From NCBI GenBank assembly GCA_016926505.1, contig JAFGOM010000075.1, positions 1 through 44,683 of the forward strand: a DNA stretch of 44,683 bases. Reading direction: 5' to 3'. The DNA is from Methanospirillaceae archaeon. Its GTDB lineage: Archaea > Halobacteriota > Methanomicrobia > Methanomicrobiales > Methanospirillaceae. Below the pieces are notes generated by a model. That model was not told the origin of the DNA, did not search any database, and worked only from the letters and a program-made list of their open reading frames with translations. Below are positions 28,950 to 42,067 of the stretch, piece after piece; positions within the stretch are counted from its first letter, which is position 1; the number at the start of each line of letters is the position of its first letter. Both the position numbers and the translations under genes were made by a program.

Positions 28950-29022
28950 GGGCTTGTAGCTTAGCTGGCAGAGCGACGGACTCTTAATCCGTAGGTCAGG
29001 GGTTCGAATCCCTTCAGGCCCG
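28950..29022 (+). tRNA. tRNA-Lys (anticodon CTT)
   Basis: A full cloverleaf is visible. The acceptor GGGCTTG pairs with CAGGCCC (one G-U), the D arm contains AGCTGGCAGAGC, and the anticodon stem ACGGA/TCCGT holds the loop CTCTTAA with anticodon CTT. The T arm is CAGGGGTTCGAATCCCTT. The 3' CCA is not encoded. No intron is present. Confidence 0.96.
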
Positions 29023-29400: not shown

Positions 29401-32400
29401 ATGAAGATCTCATTTGGTCCGAACCCTGAAGCGATGAGACGGAAAGGAGATTATAACGGGCTGATTACACTTGCAGGATCCAAAAAAGGTAAAAATCTTC
29501 GAATAAAAGCCTTAAAAGAATTGGGAAGAATGAAAAACCCGGAAGCAGTCCCGGCTGTTATCCCGTTATTATCAAACCCGGATCCGGCAATCAAAAAAGC
29601 GGCTTCAGATTGTCTTGTGAGTATCGGATCTCCTGCATGTAAGCTGCTTATCTCTTTTTATGCCCGTGAATCGGATACAAAAACTGCCCTGATTCATGAG
29701 ACACTTCTCTGTATTGGTAAGGAAGCGGTAAATGACCTGATTGAATCCTTACAAACATTGCCGGTCAGTGGAAAGGAACAGGCAGTATATACCCTGGTTG
29801 AGATCGGAGAATCTGCCGTCCCGGATCTGATTGCTGCTCTTGCTGATTCAGATCCCATAGTACGGGATCTGGCAGAGGTCGCCCTTGACAAGATAGGCAT
29901 TCCTGCAGTTCCGTATCTTATTCGTGGTCTTACAGATAAAGAGGATGAGATCCAGGCACGTTGTGCTACAATCCTTATCTGTAAAGGATCCAAGGTAGTT
30001 CCTCATCTTATTGATGCAATGCGAGGAGGATCCCGGGATTTAAAAACCATGGTATTTTTTATTTTACAGCAGATTGGTGATACCGCCTTAAAACCACTCA
30101 TAATCTCCCTGAAATCTCCGGATCACCAGATCGTATCAGTCGCCAGGGAAGCCTGTATCGGATACGGACCCTCCTGTATTGATTCGCTTCTTTTGGAGCT
30201 GTTAACCGGAACCAATGCAAGCAGGCACGTTGCAGGAACGGTTCTTATCAGATTTGGATCTGATGCGGTTCAACCACTCGCGCAGGTCATTTCACAATCA
30301 GATGATGAATTGATACGGGAAATCTCAGGTATCTTCTCTGATATCGGTAAGGAATCAATATCTCTCCTTATCAGACTCCTGCATCATGAAGATAACAGGG
30401 TTGTTCAGACCGCATCAGACGCACTGGCAATGATAGGTTCATTAGCGGTAAGACCACTAATGGAGACCGGGGCCGGGAAAGAGGAACCGTTTCGTCTGCT
30501 CATCAGAGATATTATCAGAAATATGGGTGATGAAGCGGCTGCTCCTCTTTCCGAAGCAATTGAGGGGAATAATCCGGGATACGCAGCATTTGCCATTCAG
30601 ATGATAAAAGGGATACTATCCCCGGTATATCTGGATGTAATTACCAAAGGGCTGTATTCATCTTTTCAGGAAGTCAGGGAAGAGTCATTGTCAGCTCTCG
30701 ATAGTATGGGTTCTTCTGCGGTAGAAAGGCTTATCTCACTTCTTTCTGATTCTTCTGATGAGATACGGATGCATGTCCAGTCCCAGATCATCAGGATAGG
30801 GAAGGATGCGGTCCCTGCGTTACTAGCTGCCCGATCCGATCCTGACATCGCAGTTTCTGCAGATTTTGAATGGATAATCGGGGAGATAGGGAAGGATGCA
30901 GTCCCTGCTCTTGTCGAGGCTCTTATGGATGATGAAGCCACGGCAGATACGGCAAAACGTCTCCTTACTGCCATCGGAGTGGATGTTCTCTCCTCACTTC
31001 TTCCCATGATTGAGATGAGCAACCCTTTCCGGGATCGGGTCATATCACTCATCCAGACACTGTTCCGGAGGTATCCTGAAGAAAGCCTGCGCGAATTCGC
31101 ATATCACACTTCATTGAATTCCCATTCTCTCTTATGTGATATCATTCGTGAAGTAAGCGACGATGTAACCGCTGTTTTTATTCATGGCCTTCACTCTTCT
31201 GATGAAAAAGTATCAGAGTGGTGCTCAATAATCCTCGTTTTATTGAGTGATGAAGCGGTAATTCCTCTGATAGAATCGATACGGGATAAAGATGAGTCAT
31301 ATGGACTTACCGTTACCTCCATTCTTGTGCAGATAGGGAAACCCGGCATCGTCCCACTCGCTGCTTCAATTAAAGATCCAAAAATCAGGCTGTATGCAGT
31401 GGCTGCTCTTGGAATGATAGGAGAGGCGGCAATAGAATCATTAATACCCCTTTTATCTGATGAAGATGAAGAAGTCGTATCTTCTGCAGGGCTTGCCCTG
31501 GGAAAGATAGGATCACCTGCCCTGCCTTCTCTTATCCCCCTCTTTTTTACTGATACCAGATATGCAAAGATTGTCGGGAGAATATTACAGCAGATCGGCA
31601 CTCCTGCACTCCCGCCTCTGATCGAACACATGCAAAAGGAAGAAGATACCCGTTCCCGGCATTTTGCCATTCTCATCGCAACGGTAGTCTCCATAGGACT
31701 GGGGGAAATTGAATCGCTATGTACCTTGTTTCAAATAAGCGATACGAAAACTGGTTCTATTCTTGGAAATGCATTTGGTCTTTCCGGAGTTGTTGTTGTT
31801 CGTCCCCTTCTGAAGGGAGTTGCTGCCTATGATAAAGGGGTCCCGCAGATTGTATCCATTGCCATAAAAAATATTGGATCTCCTGCTGTTCCATATATTA
31901 TCGAGCAGATTCAAAATTACCACCTTTCTGATCGTCATGTCATCCCGTTTCTTTTCCTGCTCACCATTCCCCACGATCCGGGTGTGATTCCCCTCCTGCG
32001 GAGTTGGTATCGCAGTCCGGACAGTGAAATACGAACTGCAGTTGTTAAAAACCTGGAGCCGTTTGGATCTGCTGCAGCAGATATCTTTACCCGTGCAATG
32101 GATGATGATCCGCGTGTCAAACTGGTGGCAGTAGAGGCTATGGGAACAATCGGACTCCCTGTTCTTGACAGTCTTCTTATTGCTATGAAAGATTCCGATA
32201 ACTCAATACGAAGTGCTGCAGTTGTAGCAATCGCCAAAGTCGGAATGCCTGCCCAGTACATGCTTATCCAGATGCTTTCTGATTCAGATCGACAGGTCAG
32301 GCACGATGCTGCAGTACTCCTTTCCGGGATGAGGTGGGAACCGAAATATACAACTGACAGGCTTGCTTACCTGTATGCATCAGAAGACTGGGACAGCCTT

Positions 32401-32526
32401 GTCGCAATTGGTCCTCCGGCAATTGAGATCCTGCAACAGGGTATGAGTGATTCAGATCTGAAGATCAAGGCAAAGGCAAAGGAGTGTCTTTCATTGATTC
32501 AGAAGAACGCATTGCATGAGATCTGA
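29401..32526 (+). CDS. Large HEAT-repeat (PBS-lyase type) protein
   Basis: This 1041-residue protein is built almost entirely from HEAT-like repeats of roughly 30-37 residues, with the recurrent pattern IG..AVPxLIxxLxD.....R..A...L..IG. Clear copies are VEIGESAVPDLIAALADSDP (about residue 135), LDKIGIPAVPYLIRGLTD, MIGSLAVRPLMETG, IGKDAVPALVEALMDDEA and IGEAAIESLIPLLSDEDEEV. I estimate about 28 repeats. There is no signal peptide or membrane helix, so it is probably a cytoplasmic scaffold forming a long superhelix. CAGGAGAC upstream serves as a ribosome site. Its partner is unknown. It lies between a small zinc-finger gene and pyrB, but a 71-base gap with a hairpin argues against coupling to pyrB. 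Confidence 0.9.
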   Translation: MKISFGPNPEAMRRKGDYNGLITLAGSKKGKNLRIKALKELGRMKNPEAVPAVIPLLSNPDPAIKKAASDCLVSIGSPACKLLISFYARESDTKTALIHETLLCIGKEAVNDLIESLQTLPVSGKEQAVYTLVEIGESAVPDLIAALADSDPIVRDLAEVALDKIGIPAVPYLIRGLTDKEDEIQARCATILICKGSKVVPHLIDAMRGGSRDLKTMVFFILQQIGDTALKPLIISLKSPDHQIVSVAREACIGYGPSCIDSLLLELLTGTNASRHVAGTVLIRFGSDAVQPLAQVISQSDDELIREISGIFSDIGKESISLLIRLLHHEDNRVVQTASDALAMIGSLAVRPLMETGAGKEEPFRLLIRDIIRNMGDEAAAPLSEAIEGNNPGYAAFAIQMIKGILSPVYLDVITKGLYSSFQEVREESLSALDSMGSSAVERLISLLSDSSDEIRMHVQSQIIRIGKDAVPALLAARSDPDIAVSADFEWIIGEIGKDAVPALVEALMDDEATADTAKRLLTAIGVDVLSSLLPMIEMSNPFRDRVISLIQTLFRRYPEESLREFAYHTSLNSHSLLCDIIREVSDDVTAVFIHGLHSSDEKVSEWCSIILVLLSDEAVIPLIESIRDKDESYGLTVTSILVQIGKPGIVPLAASIKDPKIRLYAVAALGMIGEAAIESLIPLLSDEDEEVVSSAGLALGKIGSPALPSLIPLFFTDTRYAKIVGRILQQIGTPALPPLIEHMQKEEDTRSRHFAILIATVVSIGLGEIESLCTLFQISDTKTGSILGNAFGLSGVVVVRPLLKGVAAYDKGVPQIVSIAIKNIGSPAVPYIIEQIQNYHLSDRHVIPFLFLLTIPHDPGVIPLLRSWYRSPDSEIRTAVVKNLEPFGSAAADIFTRAMDDDPRVKLVAVEAMGTIGLPVLDSLLIAMKDSDNSIRSAAVVAIAKVGMPAQYMLIQMLSDSDRQVRHDAAVLLSGMRWEPKYTTDRLAYLYASEDWDSLVAIGPPAIEILQQGMSDSDLKIKAKAKECLSLIQKNALHEI

Positions 32527-34103: not shown

Positions 34104-34565
34104 TTATGAACTGATGAGTTTTCCATGCCGGTCAATCTCACCCCGATAAATCCGGGTACTTGATATCCATTTTCCGTCTTCTGCAAGCACGCAGCGTATC
34201 TGATGAATCTCGACACATGGTCTGCCCTGCTCATGGCGGATACAATTTATTTCATGTGCGGTCTTTATGGTCTCTTCACTGACAACAAGCACATCAAACG
34301 ATGATTCCAGCGTTGATCCAAAACGGTCGCTGAGTTCTTCGATCTCCCATGTTGCCTGTGGTGTGCATCTCTGTAAGAATGAAATAAGTTCCTGTAATCG
34401 TTTTTCATATGAGCGAACCGGATGATTCTTTCTTTTCGCAAATGCATCACTACACAGTCCGACGACAACATGCCCCTCTTGTCCTGCGATCTCAAACGCC
34501 CGTGAAAGAAGCATCTGGTGACCATCATGCAGAGGATCAAATGTCCCTCCGACCATAACCTTCAT
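34104..34565 (-). CDS. coaD: Archaeal phosphopantetheine adenylyltransferase
   Basis: This nucleotidyltransferase transfers AMP from ATP to 4'-phosphopantetheine, making dephospho-CoA, the penultimate step of coenzyme A synthesis. The 153-residue protein has the GGTFDPLHDGHQML motif (about residues 6-19) with the adenylyl-binding His-x2-His pattern, then VVGLCSDAFAKRK, a DVLVVSEETIKTAHEINCIR strand-helix (about 95) that corresponds to the archaeal EETxxxA(x)xIN signature, and a late ISSTRIYRGEID. The archaeal form is distant from bacterial CoaD. Its start codon is only 30 bases from that of the divergent gamma-carbonic-anhydrase-like gene, leaving little room for two separate promoters. Confidence 0.9.
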   Translation of the reverse strand: MKVMVGGTFDPLHDGHQMLLSRAFEIAGQEGHVVVGLCSDAFAKRKNHPVRSYEKRLQELISFLQRCTPQATWEIEELSDRFGSTLESSFDVLVVSEETIKTAHEINCIRHEQGRPCVEIHQIRCVLAEDGKWISSTRIYRGEIDRHGKLISS

Positions 34566-34595
34566 AGTTCTGAATAGTTAAGTTCCTATGTTATT

Positions 34596-35090
34596 ATGAA
34601 TTATCATCAATCTCCTGTCCCCGATAGTGTTTTTATTGCGCCGAATGCGACACTTACCGGTGATATTACCCTTGGTTCTTCGGCAAATATCTGGTTCGGA
34701 GCGGTTGTCCGGGCTGATAAGGCTGCAGTAACGATCGGTGACGGGAGCAATATCCAGGACACCTGTGTCGTCCATACATCCCGCTCCTTTCCGGTGATTA
34801 TCGGGCGCAATGTATCAGTCGGTCATGGCGCTATTCTGCACGGGTGTACGGTTGAAGATAATGTTCTCGTCGGTATGGGAGCCATTATATTAAACGGGGC
34901 CGTGATTCGGGAAGGATCTATAATCGGTGCCGGTGCACTGGTTTCTGAAGGAAAGAACATACCTTCCCGATCCCTTGTTCTCGGCCTACCCGGAAAAGTG
35001 GTGAGAGATGTGAGTGAGGATGAATACAGAGGTATCATTCACAATGCAGAAGAGTACGTAAAACTGGCAGGGAAGTACAGAAATGAATGA
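34596..35090 (+). CDS. Gamma-carbonic anhydrase-like left-handed beta-helix protein
   Basis: This 164-residue protein is a hexapeptide-repeat left-handed beta-helix of the gamma-carbonic anhydrase family. Repeats run from VFIAPNATLTGDITLGSSAN to about residue 135, and the family block WFGAVVRADKAAVTIGDGSN is followed by DTCVVHTS, VSVGHGAILHGCTV and GMGAIILNGAVI. The zinc-ligand His positions in VVHTS, VGHGA and LHGC are present. It could hydrate CO2 or be a structural relative; Cam-type acidic residues are hard to judge without alignment. It is the first gene of a tight operon, and its stop overlaps the HdrA-like start by eight bases. A role in supplying bicarbonate/CO2 to a redox reaction is inference. 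Confidence 0.88.
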   Translation: MNYHQSPVPDSVFIAPNATLTGDITLGSSANIWFGAVVRADKAAVTIGDGSNIQDTCVVHTSRSFPVIIGRNVSVGHGAILHGCTVEDNVLVGMGAIILNGAVIREGSIIGAGALVSEGKNIPSRSLVLGLPGKVVRDVSEDEYRGIIHNAEEYVKLAGKYRNE

Positions 35091-36369
35091 TGTTGTTGTT
35101 GTGGGAGCAGGAATTGCAGGGATAACCGCAGCCCTTGATATCGCGAATCATGGAATCTTTGTTCACCTTATCGAGCGTGAACCCTCAATCGGAGGACATA
35201 TGGCCATGCTTGATAAGACTTTTCCTACCAATGACTGTTCGATGTGTATCCTCTCTCCAAAGATGGTGGATGTTTCCCGGCATGAACGGATAACGGTTTA
35301 TACCACCACCGAAGTGACTTCGATCACGGGATCTGCGGGAAATTTTACCGTTATCGCACAGAGACATCCCCGGTATATTGATATGGAACGCTGTACCGGG
35401 TGTGGAGACTGTATTGATGTCTGCCCGGTCGAGGTCTATAATATGTTTGATGCGGGTCTCGGGGTACGAAAAGCAATCTACAAACCGCATAAACAGGTTG
35501 TGCCTGACTGTGTTGTCAGAGACATAAAACACTGTATCGACTGTGGTCTGTGTTATGATATCTGCGGAACCGGAGCAGTTCTTCATGATGACGAGGATCA
35601 GGTGGAGATACTGGAGATTCCTGCTACGGCTGTTGTTATCACAACCGGATATGATCTGTATGATGCCGGCGAAAAGAAACGGTACGGATATTTACGGATA
35701 CCGGACGTGATTACCAGTATCGAGTTTGAGCGGATGATCAATGCAAGCGGGCCGACGGGAGGAGAACTTCGGCGTCTGTCTGACGGAAATATTCCGGAAT
35801 CTATTGTTTTTATCCAGTGTGTTGGTTCCCGCGACATGACAGAATCGGGAAATGCATATTGTTCCTGTGTCTGTTGTATGTATGCAATAAAAAATGCGAT
35901 TCTTATCAAGGAGAAGTATCCCGATACCGAAGTTATTATCCTTTACATGGATATCCGGGCATATGGAAAAGGATACGAGGAGTACTACCAGCGTGCGGTT
36001 ACTATTGGAATACGGTTTATCCGGGCCCTTGCAGGTGATCTTTACGAGGTCGACCATTCCATCTGCATCAGGATAGAAGATACCGAGACAGGAGATATGG
36101 AGATTCTCAAACCACAACTTGTCATCCTCTCGGTTGCAATACAGCCGACATCTGATGCAGGAGAGATTGCAAAACGGTTTGGTATTGCATCTGATGATTA
36201 CGGATTTTTCCTCTCCCTTCATGAGAAGACCGGTATCGTGCAGACATCTGTTCCGGGGATCTTTATTGCCGGAACCTGTCGTGCCCCCAAAGACATCCCG
36301 GATACGGTGGCTGAAGGTGGAGCGGCTGCAATGCAGGCTGTGATTGAGACATTACAGGCAGGTCATTGA
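35083..36369 (+). CDS. Short HdrA-like FAD / iron-sulfur oxidoreductase
   Basis: The 428 residues match the middle of HdrA, the flavoprotein of heterodisulfide reductase that bifurcates electrons. Present are the FAD-binding VVVGAGIAGITAALDIANHG (residues 5-24), EREPSIGGHMAMLDKTFP, NDCSMCILSPKMVDV, one [4Fe-4S] ferredoxin motif CTGCGDCIDVCPVEV (about 104-118) and a second CIDCGLCYDIC (about 150-160), then EFERMINASGPTGGE, FIQCVGSRD, YCSCVCCMYAIKNAILIKEK and GTCRAPKDIPDTVAEGGAA. The usual N-terminal extension of about 130 residues and the C-terminal ferredoxin domain are missing, against roughly 650 residues for full HdrA. It overlaps its neighbours on both sides. It may work in a methanogenesis-independent redox step; its partners are unknown. 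Confidence 0.88.
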   Translation: MNDVVVVGAGIAGITAALDIANHGIFVHLIEREPSIGGHMAMLDKTFPTNDCSMCILSPKMVDVSRHERITVYTTTEVTSITGSAGNFTVIAQRHPRYIDMERCTGCGDCIDVCPVEVYNMFDAGLGVRKAIYKPHKQVVPDCVVRDIKHCIDCGLCYDICGTGAVLHDDEDQVEILEIPATAVVITTGYDLYDAGEKKRYGYLRIPDVITSIEFERMINASGPTGGELRRLSDGNIPESIVFIQCVGSRDMTESGNAYCSCVCCMYAIKNAILIKEKYPDTEVIILYMDIRAYGKGYEEYYQRAVTIGIRFIRALAGDLYEVDHSICIRIEDTETGDMEILKPQLVILSVAIQPTSDAGEIAKRFGIASDDYGFFLSLHEKTGIVQTSVPGIFIAGTCRAPKDIPDTVAEGGAAAMQAVIETLQAGH

Positions 36370-37439
36370 TGAAAGAGGATAGATCCGGGTATACTATCTG
36401 GTTTGATCGCGGGACACCGGGGATTGGATATATTGATCAGACCTGTATTCCCGGCACATACCGGGTAACCATGGCTTATACACCCCATGAACTGGCTGGA
36501 GCGATACAGGTACTGGCCATTCGGGGAGCACCAGCTCTTGGTGTAGCCGGTGCATACGGAGTGGCTCTGGCTGCATTATGTGCCGATGCTGAATCTATCG
36601 ATTCTTTTCTGGATACAATAAAAAAAGATGCTGATATGCTCAGAAGAACACGACCCACTGCAGTTAACCTCTCATATGGTATTGACAGGGTCTTTGGAAG
36701 GATAAGGCAGGAGAAGGACGTGCATCTTGCAAAAGAAGCAGCTCTTGCAGAAGCAGACGCTGTTGCCAGGGAGGATGAACAAATGTGCCGGGGTATCGGA
36801 GAGACTGGCAACGCCCTTATCCCTAACCGCTGTACTATCCTTACCCACTGTAATGCCGGTGCCCTTGCCTGTTCTACCTGGGGGACGGCTCTCGGGGTTA
36901 TCAGGTCAGCGGTGGCAGCAGGAAAAGAGGTATCTGTGTATGCATGCGAGACCCGGCCGCTTCTCCAGGGTGCCCGGCTGACAGCCTGGGAACTCAAAGA
37001 GGAAAAGATTCCCGTTACTGTTATTACAGATTCCATGGCAGCAATGCTGATGCGGAAAAGTATGATTGACCTTGTGATCGTGGGAGCAGATCGCATTACC
37101 CGGGATGTTGTTGTGAATAAAATAGGAACGTACATGCATGCGGTCTGTGCGAAGTATCATGGGATTCCGTTTTATGTCGCTGCCCCTCTCTCTACCTTTG
37201 ATCTCACTTCTTCTGAGATTGATATTACGATAGAAGAGCGTGATCGGGATGAGATCGCCCGATGGGGGGGTCATATAACGGTACCCCCTGATGTTTCGGT
37301 CTATAATCCTGCATTTGATCCGACACCGGTGCAGATGATCACTGGAATTATTACGGAATTTGGTCTCCTGCGGCTTCCTGATGACTGGGATCGGGTAACA
37401 GAGCAGGTTAGTATGGCAGATCGCATAATCCGGGATTAG
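36369..37439 (+). CDS. mtnA: S-methyl-5-thioribose-1-phosphate isomerase
   Basis: MtnA converts methylthioribose-1-phosphate to methylthioribulose-1-phosphate in recycling of the methylthioadenosine made from SAM. It belongs to the eIF2B-alpha-like family; regulatory aIF2B subunits are close relatives. The 356-residue sequence has AIRGAPALGVAGAYGVALAA (about 49-68), RPTAVNLSYGIDRV (about 96), TILTHCNAGALACSTWGTAL (about 155-174) with the catalytic Cys region, VYACETRPLLQGARLTAWEL, and IVGADRITRDVVVNKIGTYM (about 236) with the catalytic Asp. The ATG overlaps the stop of the HdrA-like gene. It follows a redox gene rather than other salvage genes, which is unusual. The DadD-like deaminase elsewhere in the window would produce its precursor chain. 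Confidence 0.93.
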   Translation: MKEDRSGYTIWFDRGTPGIGYIDQTCIPGTYRVTMAYTPHELAGAIQVLAIRGAPALGVAGAYGVALAALCADAESIDSFLDTIKKDADMLRRTRPTAVNLSYGIDRVFGRIRQEKDVHLAKEAALAEADAVAREDEQMCRGIGETGNALIPNRCTILTHCNAGALACSTWGTALGVIRSAVAAGKEVSVYACETRPLLQGARLTAWELKEEKIPVTVITDSMAAMLMRKSMIDLVIVGADRITRDVVVNKIGTYMHAVCAKYHGIPFYVAAPLSTFDLTSSEIDITIEERDRDEIARWGGHITVPPDVSVYNPAFDPTPVQMITGIITEFGLLRLPDDWDRVTEQVSMADRIIRD

Positions 37440-37442
37440 AAT

Positions 37443-38168
37443 ATGGTCTTTGAGTATTCAGTTACCTTTCAGTCAGTCCTTACACTCATTGGGTTAATTA
37501 CCGTCGTGTTTCTCCTTTTTTTCCTGATTATTAGTTCCATCCTTATTGTACTACTGGTGTATGCTTTAAAAACAGGTATCGTGCCATTTCCCAGGTTTTT
37601 AAAGGCAGGGATTTTATTTTTTGAGACATTTATGATCTGGTTTATCAGGGTAGCCGGGATCAATGATACTGATTTCTGGAGGTTCATGGCTGGACTTCAG
37701 AATAATCTGAATAAACAGGCTTTTTCTGAAGTCCCTATCGATAAACGTGCGGTTTTTCTTCCCCAATGTCTTCGGTCTGCCAAATGCCCGGCACACCTTG
37801 AACCTGAAGGGTTGAAATGTCGTTCATGCGGGTTATGTACCGTTGGTCAGGCACACAGAGTTCTGCAAGGACTTGGATACCGGGTTTTTATTGTACCCGG
37901 GTCCTCTTTTATCGGGCGGATGATTAAGAAGTACCGGATAAAGGGAGTAATCGGGGTAGGTTGTCTGATTGAGATTAAAGACGGTCTTGAGATGGCTGAT
38001 AAAGCAGGTTATGTCGCAATGGGGGTTGTGTCAGACAAGGATGGATGTGTTGAGACATCAGTGAACTGGGAATCAGTCTATGAGATAGCAATGCTTGGTC
38101 TTGATCCGGCATCATTTCCAGACTCTATATTGGAATTTCTTCCCGCTTCCGAGGAACCCCGAGCCTGA
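37443..38168 (+). CDS. DUF116 membrane protein with Cys motif
   Basis: This 241-residue DUF116 protein has a hydrophobic N terminus with about two membrane segments (residues 12-42 and 52-70), then a cytoplasmic domain. The domain contains CLRSAKCPAHLEPEGLKCRS, continuing CGLC (about residues 108-131), a five-Cys cluster that could bind iron-sulfur or zinc, followed by GYRVFIVPGSSFIGRMIKKY and GVIGVGCLIEIKDGLEMADK. Function is unknown; DUF116 proteins are common in methanogens and some bacteria. It starts three bases after the mtnA stop and completes a four-gene operon with the HdrA-like protein. It could anchor an iron-sulfur partner at the membrane, which is inference. Confidence 0.85.
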   Translation: MVFEYSVTFQSVLTLIGLITVVFLLFFLIISSILIVLLVYALKTGIVPFPRFLKAGILFFETFMIWFIRVAGINDTDFWRFMAGLQNNLNKQAFSEVPIDKRAVFLPQCLRSAKCPAHLEPEGLKCRSCGLCTVGQAHRVLQGLGYRVFIVPGSSFIGRMIKKYRIKGVIGVGCLIEIKDGLEMADKAGYVAMGVVSDKDGCVETSVNWESVYEIAMLGLDPASFPDSILEFLPASEEPRA

Positions 38169-38292: not shown

Positions 38293-39135
38293 TTAAAAGA
38301 GATATGCTGACAGGGTAAAGATTACCAGTGATGCAAACATCCCGGCCTTAAGGATAGTCGTACTTTTTTTCTTTCTGATGCAGGAAGAATCACTACAGTT
38401 ACATGCCAGAACACTCCCGGTAATTAACAGGAGATCGACCGGGATTATCCCGAACAGGTACCAAACTCCCCAGCGGAAATAAAGGACCAGGCTTGTTGCA
38501 ACCCCGAGGAGGGAGAAGAGAAGAGCTATTCTGGAACACACCGGTATACCTGCCTTAATGGCCAGGGTAACCGCACCCCCGGCCGCATCACCGGCAACAT
38601 CTTCACAATCTTTGAGGATCTCTCTGGTCATCATGACAAAGAAGGTTGCTCCGCTGACGGCAATATTTGCCATAACGCCGGACAGCCCTGCAAAGGCTCC
38701 TCCAAAAAGGAAGATGCTTGCTGAAAGATATGAGACGGCAATATTTCCCAAGACCGGCATCGATTTTAACCGCCAGGCATAGAGGACAAGGAGGATCGAG
38801 TTTACGAGGCCGATACAGAAGGGGATGAAAAATCCTGTATAAAGACCGATTGCATTCCCCACGAAAAAGAGAAGTACTGCATACCATAGTGCTCCATTTT
38901 TAGAGATAAGACCGGCAGGAATCGGTCTTTGTGGCCGGTTGATAGCATCAATTGCCACATCAAAGTAATCATTGATGACGTTGCCGGCAGCAGTAATGCA
39001 TGCAATCATGAGAAAGCAGGCAAAGACAACAGGGGTAACCGTCCCGGTTGCAATAAAAAAAGCCAGTATCCCGGCAAGTCCTGCAACAACAGCATTTACC
39101 GGTCTTGTGATGACCAGGTACGGAGAGAGGATCAT
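38293..39135 (-). CDS. UbiA-family geranylgeranylglyceryl phosphate geranylgeranyltransferase
   Basis: This membrane prenyltransferase, 280 residues with about eight hydrophobic segments, should add the second geranylgeranyl chain to the archaeal lipid precursor (DGGGP synthase). The two Mg-diphosphate motifs are visible: NDYFDVAIDAINRPQRPIP (about residues 54-72) and KDCEDVAGDAAGG (about 175-187). The N-terminal VITRPVNAVVAGLAGILAFF is typical of archaeal members. Other UbiA substrates cannot be excluded, but the RPQRPIP stretch favours the lipid enzyme. The 5' end lies close to tRNA-Arg on the same strand, 17 bases from the tRNA 3' end, suggesting read-through from the tRNA promoter or a compact own promoter. 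Confidence 0.88.
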   Translation of the reverse strand: MILSPYLVITRPVNAVVAGLAGILAFFIATGTVTPVVFACFLMIACITAAGNVINDYFDVAIDAINRPQRPIPAGLISKNGALWYAVLLFFVGNAIGLYTGFFIPFCIGLVNSILLVLYAWRLKSMPVLGNIAVSYLSASIFLFGGAFAGLSGVMANIAVSGATFFVMMTREILKDCEDVAGDAAGGAVTLAIKAGIPVCSRIALLFSLLGVATSLVLYFRWGVWYLFGIIPVDLLLITGSVLACNCSDSSCIRKKKSTTILKAGMFASLVIFTLSAYLF

Positions 39136-39151: not shown

Positions 39152-39226
39152 CGGGCGTGGAGGGATTTGAACCCCCGACATTCAGCTTAGGAGGCTGACG
39201 CCCTATCCTGACTAGGCCACACGCCC
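39152..39226 (-). tRNA. tRNA-Arg (anticodon CCT)
   Basis: Minus-strand cloverleaf: acceptor GGGCGTG pairs with CACGCCC, the D arm contains CTAGTCAGGATAG, the stem TCAGC/GCTGA holds the loop CTCCTAA with anticodon CCT, and the T arm is GGGGGTTCAAATCCCTC. CCA is not encoded and there is no intron. It lies between the prenyltransferase and the divergent Trm1 gene. Confidence 0.95.
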
Positions 39227-41950: not shown

Positions 41951-41977
41951 TAGCGGTACGTACGGATATAGGCACTT

Positions 41978-42051
41978 GCTGATATAGTGTAGCCGGTCAA
42001 TCATGGAGGACTCTCACTCCTTCGACTGGGGTTCAAATCCCCATATCAGCA
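41978..42051 (+). tRNA. tRNA-Glu (anticodon CTC)
   Basis: Acceptor GCTGATA pairs with TATCAGC. The stem GAGGA/TCCTT (one G-U) holds the loop CTCTCAC with anticodon CTC, and the T arm is CTGGGGTTCAAATCCCCA. CCA is not encoded. Its 3' side is followed by sequence that looks accessory, so it could be an integration target. Confidence 0.94.
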
Positions 42052-42067
42052 TGAGTAACCAAAGTTC

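Follow-up and report, generated by a model that had tools for sequence, protein, structure and literature searches.

The HdrA subunit of the HdrABC complexes (5odc, 8rvu, 7bkb) combines a flavin adenine dinucleotide (FAD) domain, an inserted two-cluster ferredoxin domain, a cluster of the thioredoxin-reductase domain, the residue Cys197 and the lysine of the CCMYAxK motif with an N-terminal iron-sulfur (Fe-S) domain and a C-terminal ferredoxin domain. An HdrA homolog truncated at both ends and found across the order Methanomicrobiales was reported in 2009 as a signature of this order (PMC2686161), and in 2015 Makarova and colleagues predicted the DUF116 family (arCOG02078/COG1852) to be an electron-transfer protein (PMC5898192). 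Here we analyze an operon that joins genes for a short HdrA and a DUF116 protein with genes for a gamma-carbonic-anhydrase-like protein (CA-like protein) and the sugar-phosphate isomerase MtnA, and which lies on contig JAFGOM010000075.1 of a Methanospirillaceae archaeon (assembly GCA_016926505.1), of which positions 1 to 44,683 were available and are referred to as the window. Our comparison with other genomes supports these four genes as a real, ancient and order-wide unit, in which the short HdrA and DUF116 are candidates for a membrane-linked electron-transfer pair.

The operon and its two flanking genes are arranged in the window as follows.

34104..34565, minus strand: coaD-type phosphopantetheine adenylyltransferase, the divergent upstream flank, outside the unit
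34566..34595, no strand: gap of 30 nucleotides (nt) between the start codons of the divergent coaD and the operon
34596..35090, plus strand: gamma-carbonic-anhydrase-like hexapeptide protein, 164 amino acids (aa), from its open reading frame and domain matches
35083..36369, plus strand: short HdrA (orphan half), 428 aa, FAD/thioredoxin-reductase domain with inserted two-cluster ferredoxin domain
36369..37439, plus strand: MtnA, S-methyl-5-thioribose-1-phosphate (or 5-deoxyribose-1-phosphate) isomerase, 356 aa, with an alternative TTG start at 36366
37443..38168, plus strand: DUF116 (PF01976; COG1852/arCOG02078), 241 aa, N-terminal membrane helix, Rossmann-like domain and seven conserved cysteines
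38293..39135, minus strand: UbiA-family prenyltransferase, the convergent downstream flank, outside the unit

The first two genes overlap by 8 nt, the short HdrA and MtnA genes by 1 nt (TGATG), and a spacer of 3 nt separates MtnA from DUF116, so that the four genes are, as judged from these junctions, a translationally coupled operon. A joint tight operon had been proposed in the original prediction, which was made from the sequence of the window; the four adjacent plus-strand reading frames, the two overlaps and the short spacer bear this out, whereas the gene order given there has to be corrected, the CA-like gene being the first.

The gene order was followed through 120 genomes of the order, which had been sampled evenly from a larger group, by merging four protein searches by coordinates; the order is taken as Methanomicrobiales because the named loci belong there. 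Left out of the count were HdrA matches of up to 451.3 bits (full-length HdrAs and a second short HdrA), except for the 449.3-bit fragment of G091, MtnA matches below 145 bits, which are of the ribose-1,5-bisphosphate isomerase type, and CA matches scoring under 55 bits, which comprise a fragment and hexapeptide proteins of other kinds. All members of the set stand in line in 104 of the 120 genomes, on a single contig in 103 and split over two contigs in G044, so that the arrangement is not limited to the genome for which it was first proposed. Another 12 genomes hold a partial chain, with the remaining members on other contigs or not found, which is consistent with contig breaks, and no pair stands in line in G038, G061, G103 and G114 (completeness of 71, 56, 89 and 79%). 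No clear case of a rearranged unit was encountered among the 120 genomes.

The borders of the unit were examined in 51 named Methanomicrobiales loci, each junction being counted only where the contig has room for it; the window's own record or near ones may be excluded from this set. All internal junctions are kept (CA-HdrA 51/51, HdrA-MtnA 49/49, MtnA-DUF116 44/44), with median distances of -8, -4 and about +8 nt, i.e. mostly overlaps or a few nucleotides (41–50 loci). The junction of coaD to the CA-like gene is kept in 39 of 48 loci and that of DUF116 to the UbiA-family gene in 26 of 36, and all these losses fall into the Methanocorpusculaceae (0/9 and 0/10), in which each of the inner junctions is found in 12 of 12 loci. 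As the inner junctions hold where the flanks vanish, the unit is sharply delimited to these four genes.

Conserved order can however also arise from a housekeeping operon, in which four unrelated constitutive proteins would share one promoter. The tight packing would then have become fixed in the ancestor shared by the order, with no joint pathway behind it, and the short HdrA and DUF116 may each have their working partners at other loci. Such an origin is a serious possibility, only slightly less likely than the electron-transfer pair considered below. The gamma-carbonic anhydrase and MtnA have no obvious link to the flavin/Fe-S pair, almost every methanogenic relative has an MtnA gene, though in different surroundings, DUF116 is likewise widespread in other contexts, and outside the Methanocorpusculaceae the coaD and UbiA flanks are strongly conserved as well, so that gene order appears to be sticky here. 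On the other hand, the unit stays intact in the Methanocorpusculaceae although both flanks are gone, its junctions overlap in most loci, and the 120 genomes offer no clear rearrangement.

Beyond the order the combination was not seen. DUF116 is present in 186 of the 294 genomes of a phylum sample and MtnA in almost all of them; however, the other three genes adjoin DUF116 in none of 40 loci fetched from outside the order, and a CA, HdrA-like or DUF116 gene adjoins MtnA in none of 20 outside loci, suggesting that the four-gene set is an invention of the order, as far as sampled. In two of the 40 DUF116 loci (L077 and L101) an MtnA-like gene lies some 5–8 kb away. Elsewhere the neighbours of MtnA include ACT-DUF5612 or RpiA genes.

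The short HdrA matches HdrA 5odc_A over chain residues 147–564 of 654, and its own sequence begins only 4 residues before this match and continues for only 6 beyond it, i.e. the N-terminal Fe-S domain and the C-terminal ferredoxin domain are missing, as the original prediction had noted. The scores against the NCBIfam HdrA models fall below every cut-off (532.9 vs 1100, 406.2 vs 1400 and 405.6 vs 1300 bits). The FAD domain, two ferredoxin motifs and CCMYA region seen in that first reading are borne out, and the cofactor positions are kept throughout: G8, G10 and G13 of the FAD-binding GxGxxG motif are invariant, and in 52 short HdrAs so are Cys 104, 107, 110, 114, 151, 154, 157 and 161 of the inserted ferredoxin domain, C246, C260, C264 and C265 of the CCMYA region and Cys55, which aligns with Cys197 of HdrA. 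Altogether, this set shows no variation in Lys270 or in any of the 14 cysteines at mapped sites. Lys270 aligns with Lys409 of HdrA at the CCMYAxK position, a residue that we take to have a role in flavin-based electron bifurcation.

The predicted model (mean predicted local distance difference test score, pLDDT, 75.8) superposes on 5odc_A with a Z score of 40.9 and a root-mean-square deviation (rmsd) of 2.7 over 401 aligned residues, and on HdrA structures overall with a Z score of about 41, 399–401 residues and an rmsd of 2.6–2.7. Apart from its missing ends, the protein differs from HdrA of HdrABC in having no adjacent hdrB or hdrC. It also resembles sHdrA of the sulfur-oxidising sHdr complex (6tjr), an HdrA-like flavoprotein without N- and C-terminal domains (Z 39.3, 337 residues, rmsd 2.0); however, the sHdrA chain comprises only 340–349 residues and its sequence match is confined to query residues 179–420, leaving the inserted ferredoxin domain without a match. 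The truncated HdrA listed as an order signature in PMC2686161 is very probably the same protein family, although the part of that paper dealing with it gives no operon, partner, cofactor or function.

A different kind of comparison is offered by the HdrA dimers analyzed by Chadwick and colleagues, in which each N-terminal cluster has Cys197 of the opposite copy as a ligand (PMC9012536). In tandem HdrAs of anaerobic methanotrophic (ANME) archaea, one copy has the N-terminal domain and lacks Cys197 and the other has Cys197 and lacks the N-terminal domain; the Cys197-type halves (ANME HdrA 6 and 13) thus share the truncated architecture and the cysteine of the operon protein (PMC9012536). Halves of the same architecture with Cys197 were found in Borr-, Sif-, Jord-, Frey- and Thorarchaeota, in Bathyarchaeota and in Methanoperedens, and these are the nearest to the operon copy in our tree. 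When the HdrA frames outside the order were typed by the state of their N-terminal domain and Cys197, 17 of 18 short Cys197 HdrAs were directly followed by an HdrA with N-terminal domain and without Cys197, the 18th standing at the end of its locus.

The operon copy differs in exactly this respect, as no complementary HdrA lies beside it in any of 51 loci. The source genome contains only two HdrAs, the short one and one full-length one, and a search of the 120 genomes for the partner type returned, among the matches listed, only HdrAs with an interruption where the ferredoxin insert lies. A cognate partner is thus not found in the source genome or among these matches from the order, and because elsewhere the partner is encoded next door, orphan half is the most fitting name for the protein. 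As far as the literature was searched, this half-and-partner reading of the protein is new. In a tree of 99 sequences the operon HdrAs form one clade with a support of 100, which lies apart from the order's own HdrA, among the partnered halves, and includes a second, nested short HdrA. We therefore do not regard the operon protein as a degenerate copy of the HdrA that the order itself possesses, with the reservation that the tree was built by a quick method and its deeper branches have a support of 84–93.

The second short HdrA occurs in four genomes of the order (L182 8709–10031, L183 9221–10525, L184 7765–9069 and L185 4198–5577). It has 434–459 aa, keeps Cys197, carries Ser or Trp in place of the Cys at position 52, has no partner HdrA and is divergent from a beta-eliminating-lyase-family gene in L183, L184 and L185. 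Tandem arrays of short and complementary HdrAs, with up to five HdrA frames within 15 kb, were seen in Asgard archaea and Bathyarchaeota (L154–L156, L158, L163, L167, L171–L173 and L175).

An orphan half might find its partner in the main HdrABC. The short HdrA would then pair with the full-length HdrA and give Cys197 to its N-terminal cluster, forming an asymmetric complex tied to the CO2-fixing Fmd/Fwd, with the gamma-carbonic anhydrase supplying CO2 locally. In favour of this, an invariant Cys197 without an N-terminal domain is the heterodimer pattern proposed in PMC9012536, the only other HdrA of the source genome is indeed the full-length one, and a supercomplex of Hdr, formate dehydrogenase and Fmd is known from Methanospirillum hungatei (7bkb; PMC12350162). 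However, all 20 full-length HdrAs of the order that were checked keep Cys197, so that the usual symmetric dimer would be possible, no such subunit appears, judged by their names, among the listed matching chains of the M. hungatei complex, and short and full-length HdrA are only 46–49% identical. Taken together, we regard a subunit of this kind as improbable.

The second member of the proposed pair belongs clearly to DUF116, with a Pfam score of 158.4 bits against a gathering cut-off of 25. Its model (mean pLDDT 87.6) shows two to three N-terminal helices, of which residues 7–44 are strongly hydrophobic, and a Rossmann-like domain formed by residues 98–226; the membrane segments described in the first reading can thus be specified as a strongly hydrophobic helix plus a second one that is weaker. 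The five-cysteine cluster described there is also present, and two further conserved cysteines raise the total to seven (109, 115, 126, 129, 132, 174 and 202). Each of the 57 sequences examined from outside the order has all seven, and among 42 DUF116 sequences of the order C174 is kept in 98% and the other six in 100%. That DUF116 binds a metal or an Fe-S cluster would be the obvious inference. No clear relative emerged from a fold search with the model. In G024, G048, G070 and G074 (family f6, genus g23) the operon ends in a tandem duplication of the DUF116 gene.

The earlier prediction for arCOG02078 was based on similar features, namely membrane helices, a Cys-rich domain with a suggested flavodoxin-like fold and redox gene neighbourhoods (PMC5898192). 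It differs, however, in the neighbourhoods considered, which in most Methanomicrobia contain sulfite/nitrite reductase-like genes; an operon with HdrA-like, MtnA and gamma-carbonic anhydrase genes is absent from the section on arCOG02078. Another redox neighbourhood was met in family f8, probably the Methanosarcinaceae, where two DUF116 genes are preceded by a conserved gene pair in all 7 loci (L062–L068). In L062, where this pair was typed, it encodes a Nitrate_red_gam-type membrane protein and a CCG/4Fe-4S TfrB/HdrD-like protein (HdrE/HdrD-like), by which the f8 cluster is HdrDE-like and represents another Hdr-type module.

The intact FAD and Fe-S positions of the short HdrA, together with the seven cysteines and the helix of DUF116, make a membrane-linked redox role plausible, and we think that these two proteins may be the core of the operon as an electron-transfer pair, a view which is held tentatively. 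The short HdrA would either dimerise with itself or give its Cys197 to the ordinary full-length HdrA. A ferredoxin or polyferredoxin would exchange electrons with it via the inserted ferredoxin domain, which in HdrA complexes is the electron exit to polyferredoxin (PMC12350162). The electrons would then pass by FAD and the CCMYA cluster to a metal or Fe-S site of DUF116 at the membrane, DUF116 thus standing where HdrB/HdrC stands in HdrABC. The gamma-carbonic anhydrase (CO2/bicarbonate) and MtnA (salvage of 5'-deoxy- or methylthio-ribose-1-phosphate) would be housekeeping enzymes produced along with this pair.

Several observations weigh against such a pair. The proposed electron path leaves the gamma-carbonic anhydrase and MtnA without an evident role, and the full-length HdrAs of the order, having their own Cys197, do not need the short half. 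A conserved order does not by itself prove a joint function, since outside the Methanocorpusculaceae the two flanks are sticky too. DUF116 and HdrA-like genes are not neighbours in the 40 loci outside the order, in other families DUF116 adjoins NfnAB-like, tiaS or cca genes, and its link to Hdr-type genes rests on two lineages. Furthermore, the inserted ferredoxin region of the HdrA model is of low confidence (residues 106–145), and the fold matches of DUF116 are weak, the best being a designed Rossmann protein (Z 8.6) and natural ones reaching at most 7.5.

A more far-reaching version of the electron-transfer pair is a so far undescribed membrane-linked Hdr variant in an order without cytochromes and methanophenazine. 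In it the orphan half would be a homodimer without N-terminal clusters or be joined to the full-length HdrA by giving it Cys197, electrons would pass via the seven-Cys DUF116 at the membrane and on to an acceptor, and the gamma-carbonic anhydrase and possibly MtnA would be physical or functional subunits. We consider this variant unlikely.

MtnA scores 367.6 bits against 279 at the equivalog cut-off of TIGR00512, and its Cys161 and Asp241, invariant in 45 sequences, are presumably the catalytic Cys and Asp. The CA-like protein stays below the cut-off of NCBIfam NF050158 (177.6 vs 250 bits); His60, His77 and His82 are invariant in 51 sequences, and we take these to be the zinc-site histidines of gamma-carbonic anhydrase. 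Outside the order, MtnA adjoins an ACT-DUF5612 protein, a possible regulator of the salvage route, in L222, L223, L224, L233 and L235 (families f14, f19 and f7), and in L235 (3011–6499, family f7) it lies about 1 kb downstream of pyrBI, genes that are also found near the operon in the window.

In Methanocaldococcus, MtnA-type isomerases have been proposed to act in the salvage of 5'-deoxyadenosine (PMC6079011, PMC6302742), a route that has been tied to amino-acid synthesis (PMC10986504). The source genome contains one PNP-family gene and one class II aldolase, both on contigs other than that of the operon, so that a 5'-deoxynucleoside route could be complete there, though not as an operon. These genes bear on the possibility that low-potential electrons reach radical-SAM (S-adenosylmethionine) enzymes by way of the short HdrA and DUF116, while MtnA removes the by-product 5'-deoxyadenosine as 5-deoxyribulose-1-phosphate. 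The proposed salvage role of MtnA-type isomerases and the presence of the other steps of the route would fit; however, the operon contains no radical-SAM gene, and the phosphorylase and the aldolase are unlinked to it. In addition, no HdrA-type protein is known to act as donor for radical-SAM enzymes, and a support function of this kind seems highly improbable. A paper that mentions hdrA together with methylthioribose was set aside as irrelevant, hdrA there being a dihydrofolate reductase.

With regard to the original prediction as a whole, its membrane-linked redox reaction is plausible from the cofactor positions of the short HdrA and from the cysteines and helix of DUF116, whereas nothing was found that points to a C1 or sulfur by-product as the substrate, and the two further enzymes of the established MtnA route are encoded elsewhere in the genome. 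It had also put the operon forward as an undescribed system. The truncated HdrA (PMC2686161) and a redox role of DUF116 (PMC5898192) are already in print; no description of the four-gene combination was found in the open-licence literature.

As for the surroundings, pyrB and pyrI lie upstream of the operon in addition to coaD. Since the start codons of coaD and of the operon are just 30 nt apart, their two promoters must overlap or sit inside genes, and any promoter of the operon would be in this gap or inside coaD. The window further contains a 1041-aa protein consisting mostly of HEAT repeats upstream of pyrB (29401–32526) and tRNA genes for Lys(CTT) at 28950–29022, Arg(CCT) at 39152–39226 on the minus strand and Glu(CTC) at 41977–42052.

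Members of the Methanomicrobiales, although devoid of cytochromes and methanophenazine, have been proposed still to couple the reduction of heterodisulfide and CO2 to ion gradients across the membrane (PMC2686161). A nearly universal, membrane-anchored Cys-rich protein that is co-made with an orphan HdrA half is a concrete and testable candidate for an electron-transfer link in this order. In addition, the widespread DUF116 family is now seen in two independent Hdr-type neighbourhoods, this one and the HdrE/HdrD-like one of family f8, which provides a handle on its function.

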